64,000 nucleotides of DNA from Archaeoglobus veneficus SNP6 (GTDB lineage: Archaea > Halobacteriota > Archaeoglobi > Archaeoglobales > Archaeoglobaceae), in assembly GCF_000194625.1 (NCBI RefSeq), contig NC_015320.1:1658612-1722611 (forward strand), written 5' to 3'. Positions 14,536 through 44,232 of this stretch are shown piece after piece. Made by a program: the position numbers and the translations under genes. The notes below the pieces were generated by a model. The model did not search any database and had not been told where the DNA came from. It worked only from the letters and a program-made list of their open reading frames with translations. Position 1 is the stretch's first letter, and every line of letters begins with the position of its first letter.

Positions 14536-14564
14536 ATTTAAGTATTCTCAGTTGAAGTTGCTAC

Positions 14565-15686
14565 ATGGCAATCAAAGAATACCTTGTGTTTTTGCTGTTA
14601 GGAGCCGTATCAGCCCCGCTCAGTTTTGCACTTGGAGGTATTCTGACTTCTGCAAATCTACTCAGACTGGAGGGGCCTTCAGAACTGCTATTTGCTTTAA
14701 TCGTTTGTTCCGTCCTTTTTGCTGCAGGACTTTACTTTCTCAAGCCAAATTATGCGCTTAAGGGCTTTGGTATTGCAATCGCCCTTTCTCTGGCAATATA
14801 CCTTGCTTTGCTTTTTGATCCCCGTTTGATTATTGTGCTGCTTGTGCTCTTGCTTCTGACAGCATCATTGCCAGTTAAAATCCCATCTTCACTGAGAGCC
14901 TTTGCCATTTCATGCCTCGCTTTGCTTCTCGCCTTCGGCGCCATATTCGCGTGGAGTGCCTACGAACACTACAGTGCGAAGTATATTGAGGTTAAAAAGT
15001 TAGACTATCCTGATAAATTTGTAAACCTGACGGAAAAGGAGATAGAAGGCTATCCAGCACTAAAAAAGGCGATAAGAGCGACAGATGAGCAAAGCTGGGC
15101 TGAAGTGATAGTTTCCCCGGACGAGTACTTCAAGCTGAAAGATGCGTTAAGTGATTTTAGGTACGTCAAGATTAATGGGGAATACTACCGAATATGGCTG
15201 ACGAAGTTCGTAAGCGTTCACAGGCTTGGTTATGAGCCCGCAAACTACGCAGAGGTTGCCGAGGAGGAGATGGGGCGTTATCCGTCCCTTGAAAAAGTTG
15301 TAAGCGTTGCAGTATCAGGGTCGGGAATACACAACATAAACACATCCAGGGAGGAATTTTACCAGATCATGGAATTCATAGACAGCATAGGCAACGTGAT
15401 TCTGTACAAAGGCGTTTACTTAGAAATCAGCACAGACTGCAGAATATACCTCAAAAAGTTACAGTATCCTCCTTCCGACTATGCAAGCGTGAGTAAAGAA
15501 GAGCTTGCGGAGTACGAGGTTATCAGGAAGGCTATAGAAGCTGCAAGGTCGAGCGAAGATGGGAAAGCGATAATGAAAGTAAAGCCGGAAGAATGGGATG
15601 CTGCTATGGATTTTCTGCATAGAAAGGGTTCTAACGTTATCGAATTTGAGGGAAAGTACTACGAGTTCAGTTTTATGACAGCTTAG
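14565..15686 (+). CDS. Membrane protein with three C-terminal repeats
   Basis: 373 residues. The first ~135 form four hydrophobic helices. The rest consists of three related units of about 80 residues (roughly 141-225, 226-305, 306-373). Each begins with a (L/Y)xYPxxYxxVxxEE(I/M/L)xxY motif (for example LGYEPANYAEVAEEEMGRY) and the first and third end near GxYYxxxx (INGEYYRIW, FEGKYYEFS). The repeats are charged, so they are probably a soluble binding domain outside or inside the membrane. No known family recognised. It is followed by a small membrane protein 11 bases downstream. Confidence 0.75.
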   Translation: MAIKEYLVFLLLGAVSAPLSFALGGILTSANLLRLEGPSELLFALIVCSVLFAAGLYFLKPNYALKGFGIAIALSLAIYLALLFDPRLIIVLLVLLLLTASLPVKIPSSLRAFAISCLALLLAFGAIFAWSAYEHYSAKYIEVKKLDYPDKFVNLTEKEIEGYPALKKAIRATDEQSWAEVIVSPDEYFKLKDALSDFRYVKINGEYYRIWLTKFVSVHRLGYEPANYAEVAEEEMGRYPSLEKVVSVAVSGSGIHNINTSREEFYQIMEFIDSIGNVILYKGVYLEISTDCRIYLKKLQYPPSDYASVSKEELAEYEVIRKAIEAARSSEDGKAIMKVKPEEWDAAMDFLHRKGSNVIEFEGKYYEFSFMTA

Positions 15687-25367: not shown

Positions 25368-27038
25368 TTACCTGCTTACAAGGACTCCGAGTATCGCCAT
25401 GCCTCCTTCGACCATCTTGGCTCTGAACCCCTTCTGAATGAGAAATCTCGCCGCTTCGTACCCCCTCGCTCCCACCTGGCAGACGGTGAATATCTCTCTG
25501 TCCTTTGGCAGCTTATCCACGGACTCTCTGAGTCTGTCAAGGGGGATGTGAATAACTCTCCTATCCTCAAGCGGGTTCTTCTCAGCCTCTTCATCAGTCC
25601 TCACATCGAGAATGATGAAGTCTTCGTCGCTTTCAATCTTCTTTCTTAACTCCTCAGCAGAAATACTTTCTATCAGACCGTCTCTCTTGTTCCTCGCTAT
25701 GTTTGCAGCAACTATGACTGTATCCAGAGCCATGGAGAAGGGCGGGGCGTAGGCAAGGTCGAGGTTTGCCACGTCATCGATCGTTGCCCCCATCTGTATT
25801 GCTGTTGCAAGGACGTCTATCCTCTTGTCAACCACTCCAAGGCCAACAGCCTGCGCACCCAGCAGCTTTCCGGATTTATCGGCTATTATCTTGACCCTTA
25901 TGGGCTTCTGCCCAGGGTAGTGGTGGAACCTGTCAGGAGATGGAGCTATGGCTGTAATCACATCGTATCCAAGCTGTCTCGCCTCCTTTTCAGTAAGGCC
26001 AGTTCTCGCAACCGTAAAGTCGAAGACCTTGAAGATCGTAGTTCCAATCACGCCCGGAAAAGTTGACTTCCCGCCGGTTACGTTGTCCCCCATTACTCTG
26101 CCGTGCTTGTTCGCAGTCGAACCGAGAGGAGCGTAGATGGGTTTACCTGTGAGGATGTGAATGTTTTCCACGCAGTCACCGCCAGCGTAAATGCTGGGGT
26201 CGCTCGTCTGCAGGTACTTGTTTACCTTAATAGCCCCCGTCTCACCAATCTCAAGGCCTGCACTCTTCGCAAGCTCGACGTTTGGTCTTACGCCTGTTGC
26301 AATGAGAACAAGCTGGGCAGGCATGACCTTCTCGCCGATTTTGACTCCCGAAACTGCTTCGCCATCCGTGACTATCTCCTCAACCCTGTAGCCCGTTAGA
26401 ACCTCAACGCCGTTTTCTTTCAGATGTGCCTTAACAAGAGCGGCCATTTCAGCATCGAGGAGTGTGGGAAGGATGTGATCCATTATTTCGACCATCGTAA
26501 CCTTCATGTCGAGCCTCGAAAGTGCTTCTGCACACTCCATTCCTATGAGACCGCCACCTATTATCACTGCCTCTTCTGCCCCATCTTCCCACGCTTCCAC
26601 GATTTTCTCAGCATCTTCGGCTGAGTGAAGGTGAACGACACCCTCGGCATCAATTCCTGGAATTTGCGGCCTTGCAGGCTTGGAGCCTGTGGCGATTACC
26701 AAGTAGTCGTAGGGAAGTTCGTCGCTGCTGCCGTTTCTTTCAATCTCGACAACTTTCTTCTCGCGGTCTATTCGCTTTGCCTTCGTTTTCGTTAGCACAT
26801 CGATGTTTTTGACCCGCTTAAAGAATTCCGGCGTTCTTACAGCTCCGTAGGTGGTCTGCAGAAGGTTTTCAATTTCGTGAACAAGGCCTTCGATGTAGTA
26901 GGGCAAACCGCATCGGGACATGGAAGGATATTCTCCCGCTTCTATGACCGTTATTTCGGCTTCTTCATCCCGTCTTCTTGCCCTCGCCGCAGCTTTGAGA
27001 CCCGCAGCACCCCCACCAATAACAACGATTTTCGTCAA
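25368..27038 (-). CDS. noxA: NADH oxidase / CoA-disulfide reductase-like flavoprotein with rhodanese domain
   Basis: About 556 residues. FAD site KIVVIGGGAAGLKAA; active-site Cys in SRCGLPYYIEG; NAD site EAVIIGGGLIGMECA; second FAD motif IYAGGDCVE. The last ~100 residues are a rhodanese domain (IILDVRTDEEAEKNP) with the persulfide Cys in TVCQVGARGYEAA. Such fusions occur in CoA-disulfide/polysulfide reductases, so a sulfur substrate is likely in addition to or instead of oxygen. The start is taken as TTG 27038, preceded by GAGGTGAT; an in-frame ATG lies at 27056. Confidence 0.9.
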   Translation of the reverse strand: MTKIVVIGGGAAGLKAAARARRRDEEAEITVIEAGEYPSMSRCGLPYYIEGLVHEIENLLQTTYGAVRTPEFFKRVKNIDVLTKTKAKRIDREKKVVEIERNGSSDELPYDYLVIATGSKPARPQIPGIDAEGVVHLHSAEDAEKIVEAWEDGAEEAVIIGGGLIGMECAEALSRLDMKVTMVEIMDHILPTLLDAEMAALVKAHLKENGVEVLTGYRVEEIVTDGEAVSGVKIGEKVMPAQLVLIATGVRPNVELAKSAGLEIGETGAIKVNKYLQTSDPSIYAGGDCVENIHILTGKPIYAPLGSTANKHGRVMGDNVTGGKSTFPGVIGTTIFKVFDFTVARTGLTEKEARQLGYDVITAIAPSPDRFHHYPGQKPIRVKIIADKSGKLLGAQAVGLGVVDKRIDVLATAIQMGATIDDVANLDLAYAPPFSMALDTVIVAANIARNKRDGLIESISAEELRKKIESDEDFIILDVRTDEEAEKNPLEDRRVIHIPLDRLRESVDKLPKDREIFTVCQVGARGYEAARFLIQKGFRAKMVEGGMAILGVLVSR

Positions 27039-27283
27039 AATATCACCTCTCATCATGTTTTTGCCGGAGACACATAAAGCTTACTGGACGGAAATGGCAG
27101 CCTCAGCATGAATTTACACTTTCGGAGTACCGTCAAAAATTATCAAATCAAATGGTTGAGATCTGAGGGTTCTGATGTGGATGCTGCCAGTGGGGAAAGT
27201 GAGAGGATCAATAAGAGAATATCTTGAAAAAACGTAAGTAAGGGAAAAGTTTATGGGTCAATATGTTTTAAATGGTGATTGAG

Positions 27284-28249
27284 ATGGCACTTAATGAAAA
27301 CATTATTATAAGCACTTTAAGATATTTAAAATCGAAAATAGAGGGATTGCACAGAGAGGGAACCATAAGATATAGTACTTACGTCAACCTCGATAGATGC
27401 TGTGATGAGTTGTTGAGTACACTCTATCTAACTAAGCACTCAATGGAGGGGGAGCCGAGTAAAATAGCTCGCTTGAAAAAACTCATAGATAAAATGTTTG
27501 AACTGAAGACGATAGTTGAATGCATATCTTCCGGAGTGGTGGATAGGAGTTATGATGGGTACTTACGTGAGCTGTTGACACGACTCAGAGATGTTGAAGA
27601 GTTAGATCTGTGGACAATAAAGTATGGAAGGAACTTCTCACCATTTTGTTACCCATCTTATGAAAGTGGAGAGTTGTCGTTTATACTTGTAACACCTGAA
27701 AAACCAAATTTTTTGTCATCAGACCTTGTAGGTCTTTTAGCTCATGAAGTAGCCCATATACACGATATAGTAGACAATTACAAGAATCAAGTTAATAAGA
27801 TAAAGATAGGTGAAGCTTTGGCAGATATATTGGGGCACATTCTGGTGGAATTCGCATTTGTACATTCTTTGGGGTATTATATTGAGAAAGTTGTTGGATT
27901 GAATAACGCTAATCAGACGAAAACCTGTCATCCTTCGTGGGTCGCAAGAATTTGGGTACTTAGAGCGCTTACAGGAGAAATCTGGCAAGAACAGAAGATT
28001 ATAAAAAGGAACGAAGATTACTTGCAAAGTTTACTAACTCGAGTTCCCGAATTGGATAATTTGGAGGAGCATCTTGTTAAAGATTGTGTACGAGAATACC
28101 GGAATAATGCGAGAAACTTCGTTAGATTTAAATTTAATGAGGCCATCTTAGCGAAACTCGAGGACCTGTCAGATCCAGAGGTTGAAAATTTGGGAGAAGT
28201 CGAGAAGATAATTCGGGAGGCGGTGTTAAAGAATGTACAAGCTGTTTAG
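27284..28249 (+). CDS. Putative zinc metallopeptidase-like protein of an accessory cassette
   Basis: 321 residues, AT-rich coding unlike its core neighbours. LLAHEVAHIHDIV holds an HExxH zinc motif (H154, E155, H158) followed 18 residues later by GEALADILGH, giving a third ligand candidate E177 as in gluzincin-like folds. A later CHPSWVAR resembles the HPxxxR motif of some metallopeptidases. The first ~110 residues are helical. The ATG at 27284 has GGTGAT upstream. The 3' end overlaps the next gene by 17 bases. No specific family recognised; a defence or stress-regulatory peptidase is possible. Confidence 0.65.
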   Translation: MALNENIIISTLRYLKSKIEGLHREGTIRYSTYVNLDRCCDELLSTLYLTKHSMEGEPSKIARLKKLIDKMFELKTIVECISSGVVDRSYDGYLRELLTRLRDVEELDLWTIKYGRNFSPFCYPSYESGELSFILVTPEKPNFLSSDLVGLLAHEVAHIHDIVDNYKNQVNKIKIGEALADILGHILVEFAFVHSLGYYIEKVVGLNNANQTKTCHPSWVARIWVLRALTGEIWQEQKIIKRNEDYLQSLLTRVPELDNLEEHLVKDCVREYRNNARNFVRFKFNEAILAKLEDLSDPEVENLGEVEKIIREAVLKNVQAV

Positions 28250-29225
28250 CAATGTTATGAAGGCTAATGTTTACTTGACTAAATTAGAGTCTATTGAACG
28301 AGCTGTTTTGAGGCTGTTAAGAAAAAGGTATTGTAATGAGGATTTTGAGGAGTTAAACCAGCTGATTAACATTCTTGAATTCTGTGATAAACCGATATCT
28401 GAAATAGAACTGGCAAGTGTTGTATTGGAAGGGTTGATGAGAGATCCTGAAAGCGTTGAAGAGGAGGACGTACAGTCTTTGTTGCAATTAATTCATGAAT
28501 GTAAATTAGATTTAGAATTGTTCATTGAGCATCATACTCATACAGATTTTGTTTCAAGTGTCGTACCTCGTGAGGAATATGAGAAATATCTTGCAGGATT
28601 AGAGAGTTTTTTGGGCATTAGTACAGAACGAGTTAACTTAAGGGACAGAATTTTGGAGATTATCTATGAGTACCCAGGAAATTACATTAAGAGCATACAT
28701 AATTTCATCTCGAAGAGAGTCATCGAGGTTTCTTATACTACGGTTTGGAAATACGTCAATGAGCTTGAGGAACTCGGCAAAATTTTGACGATTGGTGGGC
28801 CGCAAGGAAATCTGAGATATTGTTTTCCGAATCCCAAAGAAGTTAGAAATAGAAAAGAGTATTATGGAAAATACTTTGGGATTCAAGGCGTCATAAAAGA
28901 GAGAATTACGGATTATTTCACGACTTCGTACAAATCTCAATCGTTTTACGATTTCTACATAGTTAACTCAGACGTAGTTCCAGAAATAATTCTAACAGTT
29001 GGATATGGTACACGAATAAAACTTGGGTCAAAAGTTGAGATCAAGGCTTATGGGTTAATACAGTCAATTGAGTACTTAAAAGAATCAGAAGGGTACATAC
29101 CAAAAACTGATTTTGATGACCTGGATGTTTTATTAGGGTGGCGAGTAACGCTGGCAGAAAACGAGAGAGAAGTTTTGTGGGCAGATGTGTACAATGAGGA
29201 GTTGAAGCAGACTCTTCCTACTTAG
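28233..29225 (+). CDS. Winged-helix-containing protein, cassette partner of the peptidase
   Basis: 330 residues. N-terminal ~130 are helical and acidic; the middle (about 135-190: ILEIIYEYPGNYIKSIHNFI, YTTVWKYVNELEELGKI) is a winged helix; the C-terminal ~130 have no recognised domain. GGGAGGCGGTG precedes the ATG and the gene overlaps its upstream partner, so the two proteins are made together. A peptidase paired with a DNA-binding protein recalls ImmA/ImmR-like switching, but this is only an analogy. It converges with the PCNA-like gene and overlaps it by 8 bases. Confidence 0.6.
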   Translation: MYKLFSNVMKANVYLTKLESIERAVLRLLRKRYCNEDFEELNQLINILEFCDKPISEIELASVVLEGLMRDPESVEEEDVQSLLQLIHECKLDLELFIEHHTHTDFVSSVVPREEYEKYLAGLESFLGISTERVNLRDRILEIIYEYPGNYIKSIHNFISKRVIEVSYTTVWKYVNELEELGKILTIGGPQGNLRYCFPNPKEVRNRKEYYGKYFGIQGVIKERITDYFTTSYKSQSFYDFYIVNSDVVPEIILTVGYGTRIKLGSKVEIKAYGLIQSIEYLKESEGYIPKTDFDDLDVLLGWRVTLAENEREVLWADVYNEELKQTLPT

Positions 29226-30015
29226 TCGGCATTGTTGTTTTCGATACCAAGTACTCAAGAGTTCCGAAATCGAAAGAATATTTTATAATTATATTTCCTT
29301 TGTCTTTGACATAAATTTGTGCTTTAGTCGCTTTGTCGGAAATTTTAGCGATAACCTTGAAGCTATGAGAGGTAATATATGTCCTTGCTTCACCTGTACC
29401 TTGTCCTGAAATCGTATCGGTAGGTTTAGTTTCGGTTTTTAGTGCGAACTCTATTTTGCCCTCTTTTAGAGTGATTGCGATAGGAGTTATGTCTCCCCTT
29501 CCCAGAACATGAGTAAAGTGCTCAAATATAACCCTAAGGTCTTTTGGAGAATCAATTTCACAATGGGGAAATGTTTCAAAATTGATATTTGTGAAATACG
29601 GCGGTTCCTCGCGAATTCCATCGCTTGCCTCTCGTATAGACTCTCTCAATGTGGAATGTGCACCAGCCACCGTTAGATCTAAAGTTGGAGGATTAATAGA
29701 AAACTCGATACTTCTAAGTTCGGTTAACTTCTCACTTAAAGCAGAGAGCAGGAGCCTTTTCAAATCAGATGTGAGTACGCTAATTTTAATTGGAGCAGAT
29801 ATATCTGGGTACTCCTGGAAATGACTCCTTTTAATTTTTAGTTCATAATAGATTGAACTAATCTTGTTTATTCCGAAAATCTTGAAAATTGTCGGTTCTA
29901 ACTTTACACAAACTGTTTCGAATTCATCAGGCAAAAGGCTGTCTCTAATAACTCTAATTATCTCCTGCATTAGTTTATTCCGTGTAGTCAATAAAACTTT
30001 AGTCAAGACCTTCAC
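29218..30015 (-). CDS. Divergent PCNA/sliding-clamp-like protein
   Basis: 265 residues with no strong catalytic motif, but the order of segments follows archaeal PCNA. IYYELKIKRSHFQEYP matches the V-L-L-x-F-x-x-Y strand of domain 1; KISVLTSDLKRLLLSALSE the clamp helix; CEIDSPKDLRVIFEHFTHV the domain-2 helix; SFKVIAKISDKATKAQIYVKD then NIIIKYSFD, GTLEYLVS the C-terminal strands that in PCNA end in YYLAP. Assigned by eye, so tentative. A start at GTG 30015, TTG 30006 or ATG 29970 is possible; GGGGGTG lies upstream of the second. It is coupled to the wHTH gene (17-base overlap). Confidence 0.5.
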   Translation of the reverse strand: MKVLTKVLLTTRNKLMQEIIRVIRDSLLPDEFETVCVKLEPTIFKIFGINKISSIYYELKIKRSHFQEYPDISAPIKISVLTSDLKRLLLSALSEKLTELRSIEFSINPPTLDLTVAGAHSTLRESIREASDGIREEPPYFTNINFETFPHCEIDSPKDLRVIFEHFTHVLGRGDITPIAITLKEGKIEFALKTETKPTDTISGQGTGEARTYITSHSFKVIAKISDKATKAQIYVKDKGNIIIKYSFDFGTLEYLVSKTTMPTK

Positions 30016-30352
30016 CCCCTATCACTTCTCCAATAAACTTCTCCGGATCTTTAGGTGGAGTCTGAGAATGGTACTCCCCGAACTCCTTTTCTATCTCCTC
30101 TATGTGCTGAACAATTTTTTTGCCAAGAGGGGTGAGCTGGTAGGCTTTTGAGCCTGTTGGGGTGTCATGGGTAATTACAACTTCAATAAGGCCAAGATTC
30201 AGGAGTTCCTTTAATCCTTGGTAAACGTATTTTTTATTGAGTAGTTTCTCTAAATCGCTCCATTTTTTGCTTCCGGATTTTAGGGCGAGCAATATTGTGA
30301 GATTAGGTTTTTTTGATATTTTACGAACGAGGTAGTCAGTTGGCTCTTTCAC
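29999..30352 (-). CDS. Winged-helix regulator (PadR/HxlR-like)
   Basis: 117 residues. NLTILLALKSGSKKWSDLEKLL and YVYQGLKELLNLGLIEVV form the wHTH; TGSKAYQLTPLGKKI is the wing and linker helix. The GTG start has no RBS; TGCTTAAAAGA about 20 bases upstream is TATA-like, suggesting a leaderless transcript. It is first in a two-gene unit with the PCNA-like protein, and divergent from a small RHH-like gene, with an inverted repeat between them. Confidence 0.75.
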   Translation of the reverse strand: MKEPTDYLVRKISKKPNLTILLALKSGSKKWSDLEKLLNKKYVYQGLKELLNLGLIEVVITHDTPTGSKAYQLTPLGKKIVQHIEEIEKEFGEYHSQTPPKDPEKFIGEVIGGEGLD

Positions 30353-30418
30353 AAACTAACTTTTCTTTTAAGCATATTTGATTAATTGTGTGCAGAATTG
30401 TAAAGGAACTATGCAAAA

Positions 30419-30455
30419 AAGTAACTTTTAGATACTGGTTGCCTAAAGGTAACTT
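30419..30455. promoter_or_regulatory. Imperfect 13-bp inverted repeat before the RHH-like gene
   Basis: AAGTAACTTTTAG (30419-30431) and CTAAAGGTAACTT (30443-30455) pair at 11 of 13 positions around an 11-base spacer. It lies 25 bases before the RHH-like gene and ~70 bases from the divergent wHTH gene. A TAACTTTT copy also occurs at 30358-30365. It is a likely operator for one of the two flanking regulators. Confidence 0.45.
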
Positions 30456-30480
30456 AGTTGTTTGAGAGGTAGGTAATAGC

Positions 30481-30669
30481 ATGCGGGTCTATACTTCTGT
30501 GCCAAACGGGTGGAAAGACCTCATTGAGGACGCAAAAGAGATTGAGGGCTGGGAAGAAACTTCTGACTACCTCAGAGAGCTAATCAAGAAAGACCTCGTT
30601 TCTAAGGGGCTTCTCGGCGTAAAGAACGGCGAGATGGAAGAAAAAGAAGCTGTTCTGGTGGAGGGCTGA
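30481..30669 (+). CDS. Small ribbon-helix-helix-like protein
   Basis: 62 residues: a short strand (RVYTSVP), a helix (WKDLIEDAKEI) and a second helix (ETSDYLRELIKKDLVSKGL), the pattern of ribbon-helix-helix regulators. GAGAGGTAGGT lies upstream of the ATG. The next gene begins 3 bases after its stop. Such proteins are often antitoxins or autoregulators, consistent with the palindrome in front. Confidence 0.6.
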   Translation: MRVYTSVPNGWKDLIEDAKEIEGWEETSDYLRELIKKDLVSKGLLGVKNGEMEEKEAVLVEG

Positions 30670-30672
30670 GTA

Positions 30673-30998
30673 ATGGAGCAAAGAGCTCCTCCTTTCAGGA
30701 CTGAAGACGTCACAGAAGCGGGGCTGAACGGGCTTGAAAGGCGGGTAACCGAGCTCGAAAGGGAAGTTGAGGAGCTGAAAGCCCATGTTCTGCTTGGAAC
30801 AGATGAGGAAAATCAACCCCAGCGAATGCATAAAGTGGAGTTGCCGGCATTACGTTGCTAACGGTGGTTCTTGCTTTGGTTGCAATGATGGTCAGCTGGA
30901 ACATAGAGTTAGAAAAAAATGAATACGCTTTCTACGATAAGAGAGATTTTCACAGGATGCAACTAAAGAGAAAAGTTAATCATGCTGGCAATGTATGA
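30673..30998 (+). pseudogene. Coiled-coil single-TM protein, frameshifted
   Basis: The ATG at 30673 gives a coiled coil (GLERRVTELEREVEELKAH) and then a frame that ends at 30861. In another frame, from about 30837, the sequence SGVAGITLLTVVLALVAMMV is a clear TM helix followed by a charged tail to the TGA at 30998. The change lies at an A-run (30832-30834); one extra A would join the two as HKSGVAG. The intact product would be ~109 residues. Function unknown; it is coupled to the RHH-like gene. Confidence 0.55.
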
Positions 30999-31106
30999 TA
31001 CTATCTTATAGAGGTTCAGACGTTTACGTGTGAGAAATTGGGGAGTTTAAGATGGGTCATCATTACTCGTCGGAAATTTTTTATTACCGCCCGTTTTCCT
31101 ACTTTT

Positions 31107-31415
31107 ATGGGTGACAACGCCGTAACACTGATTGGCGTAGTAATCGGCTTTCTTTTCGGAATGAGCGGGATAGCAACGCTCTTCAGCATCATGAACGCCG
31201 CAATAAGCGAGGCAGCGATGCAGCTCTCTCAGATAAACGCTGCATCGACCCTTGTACTGCTCATAGCTGCAATAATTTTGATAATCAAGATTAGAGTTAT
31301 TTCGGCACTCATAGTCGGCGCCATAATAGGGGCCGTGCTGAATCTAATTCTTGAGCTAAATGGCATACACCTCACCAACGAGATATATTCGGTGATTCTG
31401 AACGCTTTGAGCTGA
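31107..31415 (+). CDS. Small membrane protein
   Basis: 102 residues from the ATG at 31107, with three hydrophobic helices (about 6-26, 45-66, 68-90). No family recognised. An in-frame ATG at 31038 would add 23 polar residues, but the TATA-like TTTTTTATT near 31078 supports the downstream, leaderless start. It precedes coaD by 32 bases. Confidence 0.65.
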   Translation: MGDNAVTLIGVVIGFLFGMSGIATLFSIMNAAISEAAMQLSQINAASTLVLLIAAIILIIKIRVISALIVGAIIGAVLNLILELNGIHLTNEIYSVILNALS

Positions 31416-33291: not shown

Positions 33292-33948
33292 TTACCTCAA
33301 ATTTCTCAAAACCCTCCAAATCTCGTTTCTTTCCACAATAACCCAGTACTTCTTCAAATCCTGTTCAGCCTTCTTGTATTCTGGATAATAAAAACCAACC
33401 AGCTCCCAGAAGGCTTTTGAATGTGTTGGCTCTATTAGATGGATGAGCTCGTGAACGACGATATATTCTCTAAGCTTCTCTGGAAGCGCAAGCATTGCAA
33501 GGTTGAAGCTGAGGTTTGCTTTTGACGAGCAGCTTGCCCACTTCGTTTTTTGCATTCTTATGAATACCTTTCCATACTTTATACCCAAAAGCCTTGAGTA
33601 GAAAGCTGTTGTCTCCTTCAGCTCTTTTCTAAGCATTTCTGTTAATTTTCTCTTCAGACTTTTCAGGCTGTAGTATTTGACTACCCCATCGTCGCCCTCT
33701 TTAATCTCAAATTTCTTGTCTTTCACGAGATGGTAGAACTTACCGTTTAGAATGAGCATTCTTTCCTTTCCCTTCACATCTTTCGCAAGTTCCTCAATCT
33801 CGGCTCTCTTTTTCTTTATCCATTCATAATGCTGGTTTATGAAAGAATTAACATCGAAGCCTTCTGGAGCAACTACTCTAACCTTCCCATCTGCCAAAAC
33901 CTGGATTCGAACATGTTTAACAGGCTTTCTCTCTACCAGCACGTCCAT
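33292..33948 (-). CDS. DUF45/YgjP-like zinc metallopeptidase of the restriction operon
   Basis: 218 residues. VVHELIHLIEPTHSKAFWELV provides HExxH plus a third His, as in the WLM/SprT-like DUF45 family; KTKWASCSSKANLSFN is the other family signature. The ATG at 33948 is chosen because GAGTGAT, which includes the hsdR stop, is its RBS; an earlier ATG is at 33978. DUF45 genes are often found just behind hsdR, and a role in turnover or control of the restriction complex is suspected. Confidence 0.85.
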   Translation of the reverse strand: MDVLVERKPVKHVRIQVLADGKVRVVAPEGFDVNSFINQHYEWIKKKRAEIEELAKDVKGKERMLILNGKFYHLVKDKKFEIKEGDDGVVKYYSLKSLKRKLTEMLRKELKETTAFYSRLLGIKYGKVFIRMQKTKWASCSSKANLSFNLAMLALPEKLREYIVVHELIHLIEPTHSKAFWELVGFYYPEYKKAEQDLKKYWVIVERNEIWRVLRNLR

Positions 33949-33952
33949 GGTA

Positions 33953-36841
33953 TCACTCAGCGAGTTCTCTTTCAGCATACAGCTTTAAAAACCTAACAAT
34001 ATCATCTCTCGTCTTTGTGGGACTATCAACCTTGCCCTTAAAGTTCTTTATTAGGAAGAGCAATACTCTTCTGGAAATCTCACCAACAACTTCACTCTTC
34101 TCGTACCATCTCGGAAAAGTTACACTTTCAACTTCTTTCAGCATCTCTTTCAGGCAATCAACGAGTTCATCGTCCTCAATCTTCTCACTTAAATGGCTCC
34201 TTAGAAGTTTCAGAACTCGGTATTCTTTCTCGTTTAGCCCAAGCTTTTCCTTCTCTTTTCTTTCTTCGTTTATAATCTCGGCTATCGTTTTCAGCTCTTC
34301 GTAGAGTTCATCCATTTCTCTCTTTCTTTCGTTCCAGTCCCTGACTATCCTATCGACCTTCTCAACAATCGTTTCATCGTTCATCTCCCTCGTGTAGTTT
34401 TTGACTGCGAAAAGCAAATCGTAGAAGTTTCTTCTCTCCTTGCCCTCTCTGATCCTTTTCAGGAATTCATCATCGATTACAACAACCGGGTAATCCTTCT
34501 TTATCCTCTCAATATCAATCGTTTCGTGGATGAATTTCAAAGCCTCGCGATAAAACTGATCCCTCTTCTGCTCAATCTCAGCATCAAGCCTGTTTTGTCT
34601 CTGCAAATAAGTGTGGTAGAGCTCAGAAAGCAGATCGAACTTATCTTTGAATTCAAGTCTCTCCTCAAGCAGTAACCTGTATAGATTTCTGATCTCGAAG
34701 TACAGCTTTCTGAAGTCCTCTATTTTCTCTTCAAGGACGAGGACTGCCCTATCCATTACATCTCTATCGTAAGAAAGCTCGAAATCGAAGAGACTGAAAG
34801 CTTCATCTATCTTTTTCCTTAGCTCCTCTTTAATCTCCTCAATGTTGTAAGCCGCTCCTCTGATGTCCTCTTCTTCATACATTTCAAATGCCTTCTTGAG
34901 GAACTTGAAGATGCCGACATAATCTATGATTAAACCTGCTCCCTTGAGGTTCTGACCATCTTTTATGAATGGCCTGTTTGTTCTTGCTATGGCTTGAAGC
35001 AATCGATGTTCTTTCAAAGGCTTATCGAGGTACATCGTTTGCAAAATGGGAGCATCGAAGCCGGTAAGCAGCATATCTGTAACAATGAGGATCTTGGGAT
35101 TCTCCTTCTTCTTAAATCTCGTAACTATCTCCTCGTGAACAAGCTTTAAATCGTCCTTACCATACTTTTTCATCTGCCAGTTCATGTACTCGAGCATCTC
35201 TCTGGAGTCGTTTTGTGAAAAGGTCATCACGATTTCAGTTTCCTCCGGCTTCAGGAACTTATCCAGGGCTTTCTTGTAGGATAAACAGGCTTTTCTGCTC
35301 ACCGCAACAACCATCGCCTTGAAGGGCTTAACGTTCTTGATGTAGTGGCTCGCAATGTCTCTCGCAATCCTCTCAATCCTTCTTTCATCCTCAAGAATTA
35401 CCTTTACTCTGTTCAGTCTTCTCTTCAGGTCTTCCTCAACCCGCTCCCGGTACTCCTCAGGAATCTCCTCAAGTCTGGATGACAGAAAAACCTCGAGGTT
35501 CTCTCTATCAAGGTGAACGTCATCGAGCCTCGATTGATACGCTATTTTGACCGTGAAGCCATCGCTGATTGAGTCGGTTATAAAGTACCTGTCAAGGTAC
35601 GGTTCGTCTGGATAACCAAAGCTGGCATAGGTATCTCTGCCCTTCTTCGCTACTGGTGTGCCCGTGAATGCGAAGAAGCTTGCATTCTTCAGGATACTTC
35701 GCATGCTTGCAGCGAGCTCCCCATACTGTGTTCGATGCCCTTCATCTATCAGGCAAACAACGTCTTTTCTTGCCATTATGCTCCATTCCTGGCTTTTTAT
35801 CTGCTCTCTTAACTCGGCAAGGTCTTCCTCTCTGAATTTGTGAATGAGAGTAATGAAAAATCCCCTCTTGCCATCGGCATGGCTTAAAACTCGCTTTAGA
35901 TGACCAATACTCTCTATAACCTCACAGTGAATCTTTAGATTCTTGAGTTCGTCGGAAATCTGCTTTTGAAGCTCAACCCTATCGACGATGAAAAAGATTG
36001 TAGGGTTGCCAAGCAAATCTCTAATCTTCTCAGCGGCAAAAACCATCGTCAGTGTTTTGCCCGTTCCCTGCCAGTGCCATACCAGCCCTTTATTTCTGTC
36101 TTCTATTCCTCTGGCATATTTTACGGCTCTGTCTGCTATTGCATTCGCCGCTCTGTACTGCATGTACCTCGGCAGAACCTTTGTGATCTCTCCTCCCTGC
36201 TCCCTGTAGTACGTGAAATATTTGACTACGTCAAGCAGAATCTCAGGTTTTAGAATATCAAATTCGGGCTTCCATTCGTAAACAGCAACATTCTCAGCCC
36301 ACCTCACAATGGGGAAGTAAACAAGCCTGTCTGCAAAGCTCATCCCTATCTGAGCGTACTTGAAAAGCTCAGGCACCTGCTTTTCGTACCTTTTGATTTG
36401 TTCATACCCTTCCTTCCAGTCTTTAGCCATCTTTTTACATTCTATAACAGCGAGAGGGATGCCATTCACGAAGAGGACGATGTCAGGTATGATGACGTTC
36501 CTAAAACTAACCTGCCTCGAGTATATGAGGCTGTTAGCCTTCAAATCTACAAAATCAACGAGTTTTACAGTTTTGAGATTGCCATCCTTGTCTTTTATAG
36601 TTACTCCCCTCTTTATCGCTTCAAGGATCTGAATGCAGCCTTCAGCATCGAATGAGCGTGTAGTGAGATAATTTATCACTTCGTCAATTTCCTCATCGCT
36701 AACGTCATTAATCCTTTTTAAAGAGCTCCTGAATTCTTCTATTGCCAGAACATCGTCTGGTTTTAGAGATCTATACTCCCAGCCAAACGACCCCAGAATT
36801 TCCGAAAGATAGTCTTCAGATTGAATTTTCTCCTTTCTCAC
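33953..36841 (-). CDS. hsdR: Type I restriction enzyme R subunit
   Basis: 962 residues. The nuclease domain has IPDIVLFVNGIPLAVIECKK (PD-ExK). The translocase has HWQGTGKTLTMVFA (Walker A), CLIDEGHRTQYG (DEAH-box) and AIARTNRP (motif VI). The C-terminal ~300 residues are helical and bind the methylase core. It cuts unmodified DNA after ATP-driven translocation. It is separated from hsdS and hsdM by about 3.5 kb of accessory genes, all on the same strand. Confidence 0.95.
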   Translation of the reverse strand: MRKEKIQSEDYLSEILGSFGWEYRSLKPDDVLAIEEFRSSLKRINDVSDEEIDEVINYLTTRSFDAEGCIQILEAIKRGVTIKDKDGNLKTVKLVDFVDLKANSLIYSRQVSFRNVIIPDIVLFVNGIPLAVIECKKMAKDWKEGYEQIKRYEKQVPELFKYAQIGMSFADRLVYFPIVRWAENVAVYEWKPEFDILKPEILLDVVKYFTYYREQGGEITKVLPRYMQYRAANAIADRAVKYARGIEDRNKGLVWHWQGTGKTLTMVFAAEKIRDLLGNPTIFFIVDRVELQKQISDELKNLKIHCEVIESIGHLKRVLSHADGKRGFFITLIHKFREEDLAELREQIKSQEWSIMARKDVVCLIDEGHRTQYGELAASMRSILKNASFFAFTGTPVAKKGRDTYASFGYPDEPYLDRYFITDSISDGFTVKIAYQSRLDDVHLDRENLEVFLSSRLEEIPEEYRERVEEDLKRRLNRVKVILEDERRIERIARDIASHYIKNVKPFKAMVVAVSRKACLSYKKALDKFLKPEETEIVMTFSQNDSREMLEYMNWQMKKYGKDDLKLVHEEIVTRFKKKENPKILIVTDMLLTGFDAPILQTMYLDKPLKEHRLLQAIARTNRPFIKDGQNLKGAGLIIDYVGIFKFLKKAFEMYEEEDIRGAAYNIEEIKEELRKKIDEAFSLFDFELSYDRDVMDRAVLVLEEKIEDFRKLYFEIRNLYRLLLEERLEFKDKFDLLSELYHTYLQRQNRLDAEIEQKRDQFYREALKFIHETIDIERIKKDYPVVVIDDEFLKRIREGKERRNFYDLLFAVKNYTREMNDETIVEKVDRIVRDWNERKREMDELYEELKTIAEIINEERKEKEKLGLNEKEYRVLKLLRSHLSEKIEDDELVDCLKEMLKEVESVTFPRWYEKSEVVGEISRRVLLFLIKNFKGKVDSPTKTRDDIVRFLKLYAERELAE

Positions 36842-36896
36842 TGCTTGGATTTAGAGATTAAATAGTTAAAATGATTTCGCTTTAAAGATTTTTATT

Positions 36897-37319
36897 CTAA
36901 TTCCCGAGAATCTTGGTTATTGCTTTAGAAATACTCCAGACTTCTATTAAACCTGTCTCTTTAATTTTATCAAAGTGCCTATCGTTTGTTATCAAAACTG
37001 CCTTTGCTTTCAGGCAGGTTGCGGCATGGACAATATCAGCAGCCTCATTTTCTGGAAAATAAGGCTCACACTTTTCTATCTCATCCTCTGAAGGATTTAA
37101 TATAACAATCCTCAGTTTTATAAACTCAAGAAATTCTTCAGCATTTAGTCCTTTGGCATATTTCTCATACTCTGCAATCAGAACATCATTTGCTACGATC
37201 TCAAAGTCTGGATTAGCAAGAAGGTGAAGAACTAAATCAGTTGTTTTAGTCCATCCTTTTTTAACGGCTGCAATAAAGACGTTAGTATCAATCAAGAACC
37301 TTGTACTTTTTCCTTGCAA
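36897..37319 (-). CDS. PIN-domain toxin (VapC-like)
   Basis: 140 residues. The acidic metal ligands appear in order: FLIDTNVFIAA, LIAEYEKY, DIVHAATCLKAK and LITNDRHF, the standard PIN nuclease pattern. VapC toxins cleave RNA. It overlaps the AbrB-type antitoxin by 32 bases, which is usual for such pairs. Confidence 0.9.
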   Translation of the reverse strand: MQGKSTRFLIDTNVFIAAVKKGWTKTTDLVLHLLANPDFEIVANDVLIAEYEKYAKGLNAEEFLEFIKLRIVILNPSEDEIEKCEPYFPENEAADIVHAATCLKAKAVLITNDRHFDKIKETGLIEVWSISKAITKILGN

Positions 37320-37548
37320 TTCTATTACCTTCCTCTTCTACCTCTTGTTCAAGCTTTTCCAGATCAACACCTTTGGCTTTCTCAATTAAGTCTTCGAGCA
37401 TCTTTTTAACGTCTATCCTCTTTAATATGACTGCATCTCTGTCTACATCAGCAACTAAGAATTCTTCCCCCGGCTTGATATTCATCCTGTCTCTTATTTC
37501 CTTTGGCAGCAGAATTCTACCCTTTTCATCAACCTTTGTCACTGGCAT
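37288..37548 (-). CDS. AbrB-type antitoxin
   Basis: 86 residues. PVTKVDEKGRILLPKEIRDR is the SpoVT/AbrB swapped-hairpin DNA-binding domain; the rest is an acidic helical tail that would neutralise the PIN toxin. The ATG at 37548 is the natural start of the domain, although the frame is open to 37719. ACCTTTATAACC at about 37574-37585 (minus) is TATA-like, so the TA pair has its own promoter inside the restriction operon. Confidence 0.88.
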   Translation of the reverse strand: MPVTKVDEKGRILLPKEIRDRMNIKPGEEFLVADVDRDAVILKRIDVKKMLEDLIEKAKGVDLEKLEQEVEEEGNRIARKKYKVLD

Positions 37549-37861
37549 TTTCCCACATTTCCCATTGGTTTGAGAGGTTATAAAGGTTTTGCAGGAGTTT
37601 TTCCCAGTTGTCTGAAAATCTGAAATTAGGATGTATAACTGATTATGGCAATCTCTATATTGGGGGCTTGCAGCGGCGCTTATCGCCTCAAATATGCTCT
37701 CTTTCTTGAGTTTGGGCAATTTTCTAGGATTTCTATTGTAACTCTATTGGCAATAAACTCAAGTATTAACCTAATTTTAATTACTGGTTTGCCAACGCTG
37801 ATTTCTGGGTTAATTTCTATTGGCACAATATTTACTTACTCTTAATTCGGAAGTGGAAAAT
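37549..37861. other. Gene-free stretch within the restriction island
   Basis: About 313 bases between the NTase stop and the AbrB start. It holds the antitoxin's TATA-like element near 37580. Open frames exist on both strands (one plus-strand frame at 37645-37845 is hydrophobic), but none has an RBS, so I call no gene here. Confidence 0.5.
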
Positions 37862-39010
37862 CTAATGCCACCCATGAATTCTTCCGATTAAATCCAATTT
37901 GCGGAGGTACATACTATTTGCAGGAAACTCCTTTGCAAGCTCTTTTAAGTCTAAATAGATGTTCTTGAGTTCAAGATTTTCAATTGCCGCTTGAACATCT
38001 GTTCTCCAGTAACCATCACGTTTTAACTTGCCGTGCAACACATCTACCAATTTTTTCTTTGGGTTGGAATCTAAAAGAGCGTTCAACAGCTTATATAACT
38101 CAAGGTATCGTATGCTGTAATAGAGATTGCCATACAATGCAAATCGCTTAAGTCCTTGTCTTAGTATGGTAATAGATTCTGGAATGTCCTTCTTAACTGC
38201 AAAGTCTAGAGACTCTTTTAGTACATTCACCGCCAGCACTGACAGGGCTTTACGGGTGTTAGCAAATTTCCCGTCCGAATCCTCAAGCATACGGATGGTT
38301 TGATTGTATATGTCCGGCACTTCTTTGCTTAGCGCGATTACTTTCTCAAATATTTCTAAAAGTGCCAGACGTTCTTTTTTGAAGAATTCAAATATTTCAT
38401 CCTCATCTGGCAATCTCCAGCCACCATTTATTGTCCAAATAGTTAAGAAAGGTACTTTAATGTCCCATCCGTAAATATGCCCTTCGGGATCAATAATCGT
38501 TGAGTGGATCTCAATTCTTTTTCCCCGCCAATCCTTTTTTAGGTATCTCTCAAGCAATTTTTCGACATCAAGAAGCACCATATGGATTATTGACTCCATA
38601 CCCCTACGTATATCAGAAACTCTCACCCAAGGTAACCAGTTTTCGATCCAATCTTCTTTAAAGCCTTTTTCAGCCAAGTCATCACGAATTAGTTCAATCA
38701 AATCGAAAATGTTGGACTTGCCTTTTTCTTCAGTTAATTCGAGCACAGCATTTGCGAATATGTGAAACGACTCCATTGTTTTCGTCCTGAAATCAAAAAA
38801 TTCTTTCCAGATGCTATTTATTGCTCTGGCTTTTACAAATACGTCTATATCCTTGGGTTTGTCAATTCTGATGCTGCTACCACCGATTCCTATCTCTTCT
38901 ATTTTTACCGGAAAATATTCGTTGTTAAACTGTTCAGCCCTTTGAACTACGTGTTTGATTGCTTTTATTGCTACGTTTGATCTGATTATCTGATTTAGAT
39001 TTTCTTCCAT
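37862..39010 (-). CDS. Pol-beta-superfamily nucleotidyltransferase of the defence island
   Basis: 382 residues. GIGGSSIRIDKPKDIDVFV (41-59) is the nucleotidyltransferase signature hG[GS]...DxD with D54 and D56 as metal ligands. A third acidic residue is likely in the STIIDPEGHIYGWDIKV region. The pattern is related to class I CCA-adding enzymes and CD-NTases, but a normal GT is missing after the GS. The helical C-terminal half (200-380) has no recognised domain. It lies downstream of a two-TM protein and a HEPN protein in one direction, suggesting a three-component system. Confidence 0.7.
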   Translation of the reverse strand: MEENLNQIIRSNVAIKAIKHVVQRAEQFNNEYFPVKIEEIGIGGSSIRIDKPKDIDVFVKARAINSIWKEFFDFRTKTMESFHIFANAVLELTEEKGKSNIFDLIELIRDDLAEKGFKEDWIENWLPWVRVSDIRRGMESIIHMVLLDVEKLLERYLKKDWRGKRIEIHSTIIDPEGHIYGWDIKVPFLTIWTINGGWRLPDEDEIFEFFKKERLALLEIFEKVIALSKEVPDIYNQTIRMLEDSDGKFANTRKALSVLAVNVLKESLDFAVKKDIPESITILRQGLKRFALYGNLYYSIRYLELYKLLNALLDSNPKKKLVDVLHGKLKRDGYWRTDVQAAIENLELKNIYLDLKELAKEFPANSMYLRKLDLIGRIHGWH

Positions 39011-39129
39011 TGCTTAGATTCTTACCTCAGAAAATTTTTAACTCTTTTTATCATCGGAAGTTACTAATCACTAATATATCGGTCTGGCTACTCCATTCAG
39101 AAAATTGTTCATCTTTCTTTGGGTAATGC

Positions 39130-39633
39130 CTACTTCTTTTGTCTGAACACAATTCTCAGCCTGTTTATGATCCTCATGTTAAGGCTTGTATTAAACAACG
39201 CCAAATTAATCAAATCTAAGGCTATGTAAGCGGCCAGAACGACATTAAGGATTACTGAGAACTTAAAGACATAAAAGTAGGTGTTGTAGGCCGTTATGAA
39301 ATTGTTGTTAACGATATCGAATTTCTGGTTGAGTAAATTGATCTGTGTTTGTGTAGTGTTGAAATAATGCTTCATTTCCTCGATGTCTTCTTTTGTTATG
39401 GTCTCATTTTTTAATTGCTCGTATCTCTGTTTGTATTCTTCAAGCTGCTGATTTAGCTGAGCTACTTGTTGTTTTAAAGCACTAATTTCAGCGTCTTTTT
39501 GTTGTATTTGCTGGATGTATGGTTGGCATTGATATTCAGTCAAATTGGCAACGAGCAAAAAGATTACAGGGATAAATACAATTAAGAATATGAGCGCAAT
39601 TATAAACCCGATTACATCGCTGAGGTCATTCAT
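39130..39633 (-). CDS. Coiled-coil protein with TM segments at both ends
   Basis: 167 residues. A TM helix at about 8-30, a Gln-rich coiled coil from ~38 to ~80 (KDAEISALKQQVAQLNQQLE), a linker, then a long hydrophobic segment at ~120-148 and a basic tail. The gene lies between HEPN and NTase genes, 20 bases after the HEPN stop. Membrane proteins of this kind serve as effectors in some anti-phage systems; that role is inferred. Confidence 0.65.
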   Translation of the reverse strand: MNDLSDVIGFIIALIFLIVFIPVIFLLVANLTEYQCQPYIQQIQQKDAEISALKQQVAQLNQQLEEYKQRYEQLKNETITKEDIEEMKHYFNTTQTQINLLNQKFDIVNNNFITAYNTYFYVFKFSVILNVVLAAYIALDLINLALFNTSLNMRIINRLRIVFRQKK

Positions 39634-39652
39634 TTATTCACCCCAGACATCT

Positions 39653-40516
39653 TCATTGTTCATTAAGACTTTTCATAATTCCTTCAATTCTCTTTAAGGT
39701 TTTGTTAACTATTTCGAAACATTCTTCGAATAACTGAACCAAAGGGTGCTCCTTATTGTAAATTTCAAGGGGATTAAGTTCCACTTCGGGATATCTAGTA
39801 TTCACTGCGTGTGGAAAGGTAATTATTGAAAAATAAAATAAAGAAAAATGTATATATATGACATCTGAAAGCACCAGAATCAATTTTCTAAGTGCGTCCT
39901 CAATTAATTTTGGATTTAATACTTGTTCTAAATCCTCCTTTACTTTCTCAATTTTTTCAGAATCATAGATGTACAGGGTATTAAAAAATTCTAGCAAATC
40001 GCTTTTTAGCTTGCTGATTTCACTCTCAGAAATGGTGAGAGCATGGATATTTCTTTTTAGCTCTTGTATTTCCATCTCAAAATCTTCTAACTCTTCAATG
40101 ATTTGTTCAATTTCATCTTTAGAAATAGAAACTGGCTTTTCTTTAGTAATGGTTTCGTAGAACATTATAAACTTCTCTAAAGTCTTATGCATCTCCTCAA
40201 TGTTAATCGTTCTGATTAATTCAGTCTTTTTTAACTCTGGAAGTATCTCAAATCCATCTTTGAGCTTCCCTATTTGTTCCAACTGTTTATCTGCAACCTT
40301 TTTATGAATTTTAAGCGGGTTATGTCCAATGCCTTTTCTCCCTTTTAATTCATTCTCACTTATAATTCCCATTAATAAACCAAAAGCCTTCGCTGCTTTC
40401 TCCACACTCTGCTGGAGATAGAATACTGCCTGAGAGTATAATTCATTTTCATACAAACATTTTGCAGCTGCTAAATCTTGCTTAGAGATATCCAAAAGAA
40501 TTTTGGCTAATTTCAT
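39653..40516 (-). CDS. HEPN-domain protein
   Basis: 287 residues. The first ~125 form a HEPN domain: DLAAAKCLYENELYSQAVF followed by YLQQSVEKAAKAFGLL is the characteristic double-helix signature. The middle is a coiled coil (EQIIEELEDFEMEIQELKR) and the C-terminal third is helical. HEPN domains act as RNases or bind nucleotidyltransferases in HEPN/MNT toxin-antitoxin pairs. Its ATG overlaps the hsdS stop by 4 bases, so it is co-translated with the specificity subunit. Confidence 0.75.
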   Translation of the reverse strand: MKLAKILLDISKQDLAAAKCLYENELYSQAVFYLQQSVEKAAKAFGLLMGIISENELKGRKGIGHNPLKIHKKVADKQLEQIGKLKDGFEILPELKKTELIRTINIEEMHKTLEKFIMFYETITKEKPVSISKDEIEQIIEELEDFEMEIQELKRNIHALTISESEISKLKSDLLEFFNTLYIYDSEKIEKVKEDLEQVLNPKLIEDALRKLILVLSDVIYIHFSLFYFSIITFPHAVNTRYPEVELNPLEIYNKEHPLVQLFEECFEIVNKTLKRIEGIMKSLNEQ

Positions 40517-41775
40517 ACCTTAACTCTCCTTCTCCCAGTCAACAAATCATTCATCAAGCCCTTCTTAATTCTTTCAAGCTTCTCCTTTCTTTTCCTTTCG
40601 AGTTCGAGTTTTTTATCCACAGTTGAAAGAATTTCGGCGATTTTTTGCTGTTCTGGGAGTGGTGGGAGTGGAATTAGTAGCTTTTTAATGTAATCTTGTG
40701 GAATACCCTTTATTGTTGTCCCTCTTGAGAATGATTCAAGTAAGCTAACGATTTTGGGAGAATTGAGATACCATACAAGAAAGAAGGGTTCAGCTTTCGA
40801 TTTGTTGAGCATAATTCCTGTTAAATCTTGATTAATTGCTACATCTATTAAGTTAACAGCAGATTTTCCAATCCCCACTCTTGTTGCAATTATTAGGTTA
40901 TTTTTAGGAATAATTTTTGCTGCACTGTTTTCTAAACCCTCTTTTGTTATATATTGCCCAATGGAGCGTTCATCAATATAGAATTTGGTGATATGAACAC
41001 TTCTAATCCATGGAATGTCTCCATTCCAGTATTTTGCCACTTTGGTAGAGGGGGTACCACCACTTATGAATTCGTATGCAACATCTCCAAGCCTAACAAC
41101 CTCCCACTCCTTCGGAATCCTGCCAATCTCCGTATCCTTAAACTCCGTGTGCCCTATGCCCTTCGTCAAAAGCTCCTGCATCAGACCTTTCTTCAGCCTT
41201 TCAGTCTTCACTATCGCTTCGTCGACTTTCTGGATTGCTTCATCAACTGTGCTTAAAATTTCGGCGATTTTGCGTTGTTCTGGGAGTGGTGGGAGTGGGA
41301 TTTTTAGCTGCTCAACATGAGATTGATTCAAAGCAGGATATTGTCCACCAACCATTAATCTGTTACATTGTTCAATTGTTCTGTCCATAAAGAGATTGTA
41401 AAGCAAGTACTTGGGTTCTATTAACTCATTTTTACATCGTAATACTGCAAAACCTGTAGAACAAATTTGTCCATCATACTTTTTAGGTACTATCACAAAT
41501 GCTTTCAAATAAGGTCTTACAGTTGACATGATGACGTCATTCTCACGTACTACTCTTCTCGCTCTTGAAGGGGCGTTTTTTCCAATAATTTTTTTAACTG
41601 ATTTAATTTTGCTATTTTGAATCGAATCTATTTCGATGTAATAAAATTCTTCGTCAGGAGCCTCTTTAGCAGGGTTTATAGATTCAGGATTAACTTTAGT
41701 AACATCCCCAAGCCTTACAACCTCCCAATCCTCTGGAATCTTGCCGATTGGTGTTTCTTTGAATCCCAATAGCAT
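40513..41775 (-). CDS. hsdS: Type I restriction enzyme S subunit
   Basis: 420 residues with two target recognition domains. Each is introduced by a matching motif (IPEDWEVVRLGDVT and IPKEWEVVRLGDVA) and closed by the same spacer element (LPPLPEQRKIAEILSTVD and LPPLPEQQKIAEILSTVD). The internal symmetry is the hallmark of HsdS, whose two TRDs read the two halves of the bipartite target. It ends in a basic tail and is coupled to the HEPN gene. Confidence 0.95.
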   Translation of the reverse strand: MLLGFKETPIGKIPEDWEVVRLGDVTKVNPESINPAKEAPDEEFYYIEIDSIQNSKIKSVKKIIGKNAPSRARRVVRENDVIMSTVRPYLKAFVIVPKKYDGQICSTGFAVLRCKNELIEPKYLLYNLFMDRTIEQCNRLMVGGQYPALNQSHVEQLKIPLPPLPEQRKIAEILSTVDEAIQKVDEAIVKTERLKKGLMQELLTKGIGHTEFKDTEIGRIPKEWEVVRLGDVAYEFISGGTPSTKVAKYWNGDIPWIRSVHITKFYIDERSIGQYITKEGLENSAAKIIPKNNLIIATRVGIGKSAVNLIDVAINQDLTGIMLNKSKAEPFFLVWYLNSPKIVSLLESFSRGTTIKGIPQDYIKKLLIPLPPLPEQQKIAEILSTVDKKLELERKRKEKLERIKKGLMNDLLTGRRRVKV

Positions 41776-41779
41776 AATC

Positions 41780-42385
41780 TCACCTTACAGCCCTTAGGAA
41801 GTTCTGGGGCAAATCAGGGACTATTCCAAAGATTTTGGAGAACTTAGTCTTTCTTTTACCTCTGTTTAATTCGACGATCTCTCTATCGTTGGTTATAAAC
41901 CACGAGCACTCATTAAAAATTGCTGTAGTTAATAAAATTGCATCATGTGTTCTTAGCTTGTATTCTAGAATAAGCTTGGGATAAATTTCATCGTCAATGG
42001 TGTCGTTAACGACTCTTACCTTACTTTTTAACTCTCCAAGGTATTTTGCGATAGTTTCTTTGACGAGAAATTTCTCTTCTTTTGTTAAATCATGTTTTCC
42101 CCGCAACTTTGACCATAACGTCAGTGGAATACCCAGACGATACATCTTGAGAGACAGTATTTCATTGTATAAAACGTGAGAAACTTCTGCCAGCGTTAAA
42201 TTGGAAACTTTAGCCTGATAGTCGTCTGTTTCCAGCAAGGCCTCAACCAAAGTGTAGGAATAACTAATATTCTCTAATCTTTGATTTAGTATTTTGTCAT
42301 CCTTTAACTCCTCAAATTTTTGGGCGAAGTCCTTTATTAGAATCCAGTTTGCAATAACATTGGAATCCAAAAAAATTGCTTCCAT
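41780..42385 (-). CDS. PIN-like domain protein
   Basis: 201 residues. Acidic residues in FLDSNVIANW, LAEVSHVLY, RTHDAILLTTA and FITNDREIV follow the PIN order, but the protein is longer than usual VapC toxins, with a helical insertion at ~80-130. It starts 1 base before a small basic gene and ends 4 bases before hsdS, embedded in the restriction operon. Its partner is probably the small basic protein upstream. Confidence 0.8.
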   Translation of the reverse strand: MEAIFLDSNVIANWILIKDFAQKFEELKDDKILNQRLENISYSYTLVEALLETDDYQAKVSNLTLAEVSHVLYNEILSLKMYRLGIPLTLWSKLRGKHDLTKEEKFLVKETIAKYLGELKSKVRVVNDTIDDEIYPKLILEYKLRTHDAILLTTAIFNECSWFITNDREIVELNRGKRKTKFSKIFGIVPDLPQNFLRAVR

Positions 42386-42386
42386 A

Positions 42387-42563
42387 CTATTTTTCGAAAA
42401 TTATATCCAGCAGCGATTTTTTCCTCCTCTTTTTCGGTGGTCGCCAGAGTCCCTTTATTTGCCCCTTCCTTCCTGATTCCGTAGTTCTTTGCCTGAGTTC
42501 ATAATACCTCCCGGTTACTGGGTTGTAGATTCTCTTTCTTGTTTTCTTTTTTGCTTCTGCCAT
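42387..42563 (-). CDS. Small basic protein of the restriction operon
   Basis: 58 residues, strongly basic, with the motif IYNPVTGRYYELRQRTT and then GQIKGLWRPPKK. The ATG at 42563 starts at the Lys-rich head; an earlier in-frame start lies at 42575. It sits between hsdM and the PIN-like gene, abutting the latter, so it is a candidate antitoxin or assembly factor. No family function known to me. Confidence 0.65.
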   Translation of the reverse strand: MAEAKKKTRKRIYNPVTGRYYELRQRTTESGRKGQIKGLWRPPKKRRKKSLLDIIFEK

Positions 42564-42625
42564 ATTGCTACACACTCCTATAGAGTTTATTGGTTAACCA
42601 CCCTTAAAATATTTGCTAAATCCTT

Positions 42626-44155: not shown

Positions 44156-44232
44156 TAAATTAGGAAAATCTTGAAACGATTTATTCTTTATGATTTTAGC
44201 TCTCGGAGAATCAAGCCTTTAAGAAGTAAAAG

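Follow-up and report, generated by a model that had tools for sequence, protein, structure and literature searches.

A distant PCNA homologue in a rare accessory module of archaea

A protein encoded in Archaeoglobus veneficus SNP6, here called P0001, is on the evidence of sequence profiles a distant homologue of the sliding clamp PCNA from end to end. Its gene lies in an accessory insert, and in all three orthologous loci it is accompanied by genes for a winged-helix protein (P0003) and a zinc-metallopeptidase-like protein (P0004). Our tentative reading makes P0001 the central component of a three-gene module that is accessory and probably antiviral, in which a DNA-bound core would be combined with an effector or trigger encoded by the third gene. 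Few replication proteins are as conserved as the sliding clamps, and it is mainly in eukaryotes that other clamps are known to have a signalling role (9-1-1). If our reading is true, prokaryotes would have taken up a mobile and repeatedly retained clamp for a task other than replication, together with a DNA-binding protein and a protease in the defence islands of archaea, and a prokaryotic clamp would serve immunity instead of replication. The features discussed are collected in Table 1; the window is the whole stretch of 64,000 nucleotides that was analysed.

Table 1. Positions of the features described in the text, in the window unless a locus is named.
Feature	Position	Strand	Remarks
Left copy of imperfect 15-bp direct repeat, TTACTGGACGGAAAT	27081-27095	plus	homology with congeners ends about here
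Accessory insert, ~3.97 kb	27096-31062		GC 0.387; empty site in two congeners
P0004, zinc-metallopeptidase-like, 325 aa	27272-28249	plus	HExxH 158-162, GExLAD 180-185, HPSWxxR 220-226
P0003, winged-helix protein, 330 aa	28233-29225	plus	weak HTH matches at 137-197
P0001, divergent PCNA-fold clamp (predicted)	29218-30015	minus	265 aa, GTG start
P0002, HxlR-type wHTH regulator, 117 aa	29999-30352	minus	Pfam HxlR 2.8e-8
Three spaced repeats, AACTAACTT / AGTAACTT / GGTAACTT	30353-30455	upstream of P0002	operator-like; putative function
62-aa ORF inside insert, divergent from P0002	30481-30669	plus	ribbon-helix-helix-like by eye
Right copy of flanking repeat, TTACTCGTCGGAAAT	31063-31077	plus	13/15 identical to left copy
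178-182-aa protein, 5' of lineage-B wHTH	L028:6575-7111, L029:3691-4239, L030:5471-6007, L031:8474-9010

Homology of P0001 to PCNA

The host genome is a single contig of 1,901,943 bases, and its housekeeping PCNA is encoded by a separate gene (L001, at G000:C1:1232049). We searched 394 genomes of the phylum in six frames for relatives of P0001. Two true orthologues were recovered, at 29% and 27% identity, in Archaeoglobales archaeon B5_G16 (locus L008) and Methanocellaceae archaeon UBA148 (locus L009), and the clamp is present in only 3 of these 394 genomes. We regard P0001 as a real gene because its frame and place are kept in these two other archaea at such low identity. Both genomes were also recovered by a pattern scan of genome contigs with the P0003 alignment; the same scan with P0001 alone gave no match. 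Matches in genomes G130, G127 and G377, and Orc1/Cdc6-like ATPases at loci L032 and L033, were dismissed as chance or as a shared winged helix-turn-helix (wHTH).

A profile built from the three orthologues was compared with PCNA profiles using hhalign. It matched 20 cellular PCNAs with P = 2.1e-6 over 219 collinear columns, viral PCNAs with P = 1.1e-9, and all PCNAs together with P = 5.6e-9. Reversed-profile controls of the PCNA comparison gave 0.044-0.12, and hhalign controls that used reversed profiles and unrelated module proteins gave 0.03 or worse. When single sequences, 111 decoys and 20 PCNAs, were ranked by their score, the best 12 non-self scores all belonged to PCNAs. Against the PDB, the three-row profile gave seven weak matches, four of them to sliding clamps, including the three best (E = 0.011, 0.043 for a full-length match, and 0.079). 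With the single sequence as query, no clamp was matched in Pfam, NCBIfam, PADLOC, PHROGs or the PDB (phmmer), and the gathering score of PF00705 was not reached; this is expected because identity to PCNAs is ~10-17%. Together, the profile P values, the controls and the decoy ranking establish PCNA homology at the level of sequence.

Structure prediction was carried out using AlphaFold. From the three-row family on its own, the model was poor (pLDDT 36), and its five top PDB matches were chains of PCNA or 9-1-1 (best 4.5e-3, with a TM of only 0.17). With 18 PCNAs from viral contigs added (alignment A10), the model reached pLDDT 88 and pTM 0.87 and showed the two clamp domains complete in their strands and helices, and all 50 PDB matches listed by Foldseek were PCNA. 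The second model is partly circular, with PCNA rows in its alignment. A first mixed alignment (A9) put a domain-2 strand wrongly, and the model is not independent proof because A10 is a subset picked where that strand fit. The predicted fold has the two-domain clamp topology in this PCNA-aided form.

The family departs from archaeal PCNAs (PF00705/PF02747 type) in several respects, although strand and helix order are shared along the whole length of the profile match. In a tree with all 20 cellular and 23 viral PCNAs, the three P0001 orthologues formed one clade (100/100) outside every other sequence, on a branch of ~2 changes per site. Of the elements that bind a PIP box in canonical PCNA, alignment A10 shows the interdomain-loop motif GI(R/K)xEPP in two of the three orthologues, which have I(R/K)xEP there in common with archaeal PCNAs; the C-terminal APR(I/L)E, the tail motif of the PIP pocket, is missing from all three. 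The domain-2 interface region, mostly 25-27 residues in PCNAs, is shortened to ~20 in the P0001 family and is strongly polar. From these sequence features, formation of a normal P0001 self-trimer appears doubtful. P0001 also differs in being an accessory gene with its own partners.

An earlier note on this DNA had described a 265-residue protein with PCNA-like segment order, far from a housekeeping clamp and overlapped by a 117-residue wHTH gene. Both ORFs exist at the coordinates given there, and the description of P0001 is borne out by the whole-length profile match, by the behaviour of the reversed controls, by the normal PCNA elsewhere in the genome and, within the circularity noted above, by the monomer prediction and structural search that it had proposed. 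Its suggestion of a spare clamp has fared less well. A spare housekeeping clamp would replace PCNA in some condition, like PCNA2 of Thermococcus kodakarensis; some euryarchaea do have a second PCNA, and the one of T. kodakarensis, TK0582, is dispensable (PMC3984812). We nevertheless consider this reading very unlikely for P0001, given its ~10-17% identity, the lack of a Pfam match, the lost APR(I/L)E tail, the short and polar interface strand, the very long branch and the rare, patchy occurrence.

An insert with conserved partner genes

GC content is 0.387 in the insert, against 0.50 and 0.48 in its flanks. In the two congeners (L103 in G297, L104 in G224), the genes matching 25368-27056 and 31038-31415 adjoin, ~50-120 bp apart. 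Besides the two copies of the flanking repeat, no site in the window has three or fewer mismatches to it. The module is accessory: it is inserted, rare and patchy. It has also been lost elsewhere, as indicated by a 63-aa remnant of P0003 in another member of the family, G024 (L034:5572-5760; 56% identity), which represents a decayed copy of the module. Elsewhere in the window, a transposase-like gene at 52882-53905, broken into ORFs 52882-53367 and 53408-53905, is probably a broken IS630-type copy, as judged by eye, and two membrane-protein ORFs (54781-55140 and 57360-57950) both carry HGIFEIPAIIIAGAAGFKIPYEIIRYLAG, a local duplication.

An inserted cassette could be the relic of a virus or mobile element, with a clamp that was once a factor in that element's own replication, and viral contigs do carry PCNA genes. 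This explanation appears improbable to us: the insert contains no integrase, transposase, polymerase, helicase, or capsid or other structural gene, the P0001 family lies outside the 23 viral as well as the 20 cellular PCNAs, and the searches used found no relative in IMG/VR or in phage and plasmid collections.

To identify the lasting companions of the clamp, the three loci can be compared directly. In all three, the clamp gene is found with P0003 and P0004, which span 27272-29225 in the window, 11411-13338 at L008 and 11698-13733 at L009. Gene order and contacts are kept in all of them at 27-38% identity. In the window, the P0003 start overlaps the P0004 end by 17 nt. In all three loci P0001 meets P0003 tail to tail, with an 8-nt overlap in the window and a 4-nt overlap and a 5-nt gap at the other loci. 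Because P0003 and P0001 are convergent, they do not form one operon in these three loci (lineage A). The conserved partners of the clamp are thus P0003 and P0004, and they sit outside the region on which the earlier note had focused.

That note had instead coupled the clamp to the wHTH gene P0002, a claim that does not hold at the other two loci, from which any P0002 counterpart is absent. In the window itself, P0002 and P0001 overlap by 17 nt, both on the minus strand, and P0002 is probably on the same transcript as P0001. This HxlR-type protein would control expression of the clamp there.

The three P0004 orthologues share invariant HExxH, GExLAD and HPSWxxR motifs, and this trio and its order resemble those of M48 gluzincins. 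P0004 carries the M48-like set of HExxH, ExxAD and HP...R; against Pfam, its family gave no significant profile match (best, M48 at 0.77 for one orthologue). P0003 has orthologues at 38% and 30% identity, and its winged-helix matches are followed by a conserved wing, GGPQGxxRYCFPN (GGPxG...PN). Comparison of P0003 with family profiles gave matches of winged-helix type only, none to an XRE-type repressor. A search of the partner proteins for a PIP box gave none.

The P0003 profile also reached four further genomes of one family (f7), which we refer to as lineage B. Here an operon encodes a 178-182-aa protein, then a wHTH protein, then a 251-aa protein, whose ORF begins at the stop codon of the wHTH gene or close to it, overlapping that gene, in the four genomes. 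The wHTH families of the two lineages are homologous (hhalign, 5e-14). The 251-aa proteins share a short stretch resembling FKIFGINKxSS and come first or nearly first in the decoy ranking, and their comparisons with PCNA profiles were not significant (0.06-0.55; best 0.0018); as a lead only, they may be another clamp. Lineage B keeps the wHTH and 251-aa proteins together without the protease, and its third gene differs. That gene product, the 178-182-aa protein, has no Pfam match; its conserved GxGYDY...K...E pattern recalls restriction-endonuclease-like folds. In G274, a stretch with the lineage-B wHTH gene, the 251-aa gene and neighbouring genes is present as two identical tandem copies (L029:4199-8929 and 9031-14805), either a real duplication or an assembly error.

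Defence neighbourhood and possible function of the module

We examined the genomic context of these loci for defence genes. The window includes type I restriction-modification genes (HsdR, HsdS and HsdM) at 33953-44155, at least 2.9 kb from the insert and with core genes between. In B5_G16 (L008), the P0004 orthologue directly follows a truncated PglX and the C-terminal part of BrxC (BREX), and on the other side are OLD, Cas4, Cas2 and Cas10 (type III CRISPR). The UBA148 locus (L009) has genes for a TIR protein and a type II restriction enzyme as neighbours. In lineage B, neighbours include a type IIG restriction-modification gene at L031 and AbiEii at L028. Restriction or other defence genes thus occur near three of three lineage-A loci and in two of four lineage-B genomes, which are raw counts without a background rate. 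Such a neighbourhood is an association and not a proof, and P0001, P0003 and P0004 matched none of the PADLOC models. With the low GC content, the empty site and the defence neighbours, the earlier description of an AT-rich accessory cassette in a mobile or defence context stands.

Two of these neighbourhoods have features of their own. The PglX-like methylase at L008:13338-15257 is just 639 aa long, and its match covers the first half of PglX models of greater length; for this reason the BREX locus there may be degraded. In the window, the type I genes belong to a low-GC block (33292-44155) that ends beside tRNA-Val (44232-44305) and that, by eye, also holds PIN-like, AbrB-like, nucleotidyltransferase-like and HEPN-like genes. 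This block looks like a defence island, and in L104 it is not beside the core genes within the contig stretch examined.

Across the two lineages, two parts are constant, the clamp or clamp candidate and the wHTH protein, and one part changes. This pattern suggests an effector or trigger that can be exchanged around a fixed core. P0001 and P0003 would form the DNA-bound core, clamp plus winged helix, and by analogy with the marking of damage by the 9-1-1 clamp this core might recognise DNA that is foreign or that replicates abnormally. P0004, or in lineage B the 178-aa protein, would be the exchangeable effector or trigger and would act once the core engages DNA. Any antiviral role of the module is something we infer. 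The more specific proposal of a defence system of archaea not described before, with a diverged clamp and a wHTH protein that sense DNA when it invades or replicates abnormally and then activate the exchangeable partner, is possible, and we hold it more loosely than the general outline.

The same genes could be arranged the other way around, with P0001 as the effector: a poison or decoy clamp that halts replication by binding the PCNA of host or virus, or clients of that PCNA, with P0003 as the repressor and P0004 as the activating protease that releases it under stress, as in ImmR/ImmA and DdrO/IrrE. Protease-repressor switches are known in bacteria, the P0004 and P0003 genes overlap as an operon, and P0001 keeps the fold and, in two of three orthologues, the GI(R/K)xEPP loop, and it has lost both the APR(I/L)E tail and a normal interface strand. 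However, P0003 has a wHTH and not an XRE domain, the P0004 motifs are M48-like and not ImmA-like, and the wHTH and 251-aa proteins stay paired in lineage B without a protease. Moreover, the P0003 wing is conserved across very divergent proteins, which would be unusual for a local repressor with drifting operators. We judge this arrangement, which would include the decoy clamp suggested in the earlier note, possible but somewhat unlikely.

A module for DNA repair or stress response, similar to 9-1-1 and placed among accessory genes only by chance, would have no antiviral role. A clamp fold, a DNA-binding partner and a protease also suit a damage response, and 9-1-1 chains were among the structure matches; the rare, patchy and inserted occurrence and the defence genes counted above in both lineages make this reading, in our view, unlikely. 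We retain, tentatively, the clamp-centred module with a changing third gene.

Comparison with known systems

In the literature searched, which took in only a minority of subscription papers, there was no relevant description of clamps in defence islands. T. kodakarensis PCNA2 is, like P0001, a second clamp gene in a euryarchaeon; however, this second, dispensable clamp can be recognised as a PCNA, forms a ring and stimulates PolB, whereas P0001 has diverged much further and is accompanied by module partners. Methanococcus maripaludis MMP1126 is, like P0001, a low-similarity PCNA homologue, and it is thought to serve another function; its differences are a SAM-methyltransferase domain and an apparently essential role (PMC3984812). 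The ImmA/ImmR and IrrE/DdrO pairs resemble the module in placing a metallopeptidase gene beside the gene of a DNA-binding protein, but here that protein is the wHTH protein P0003 and not an XRE partner, the P0004 motifs are M48-like, and a clamp gene is present. The 9-1-1 complex (Rad9-Rad1-Hus1) offers the likeness of another clamp of the PCNA fold whose role lies in signalling and not in processivity, and it differs in being a eukaryotic heterotrimer; its likeness to P0001 in this analysis is one of fold.
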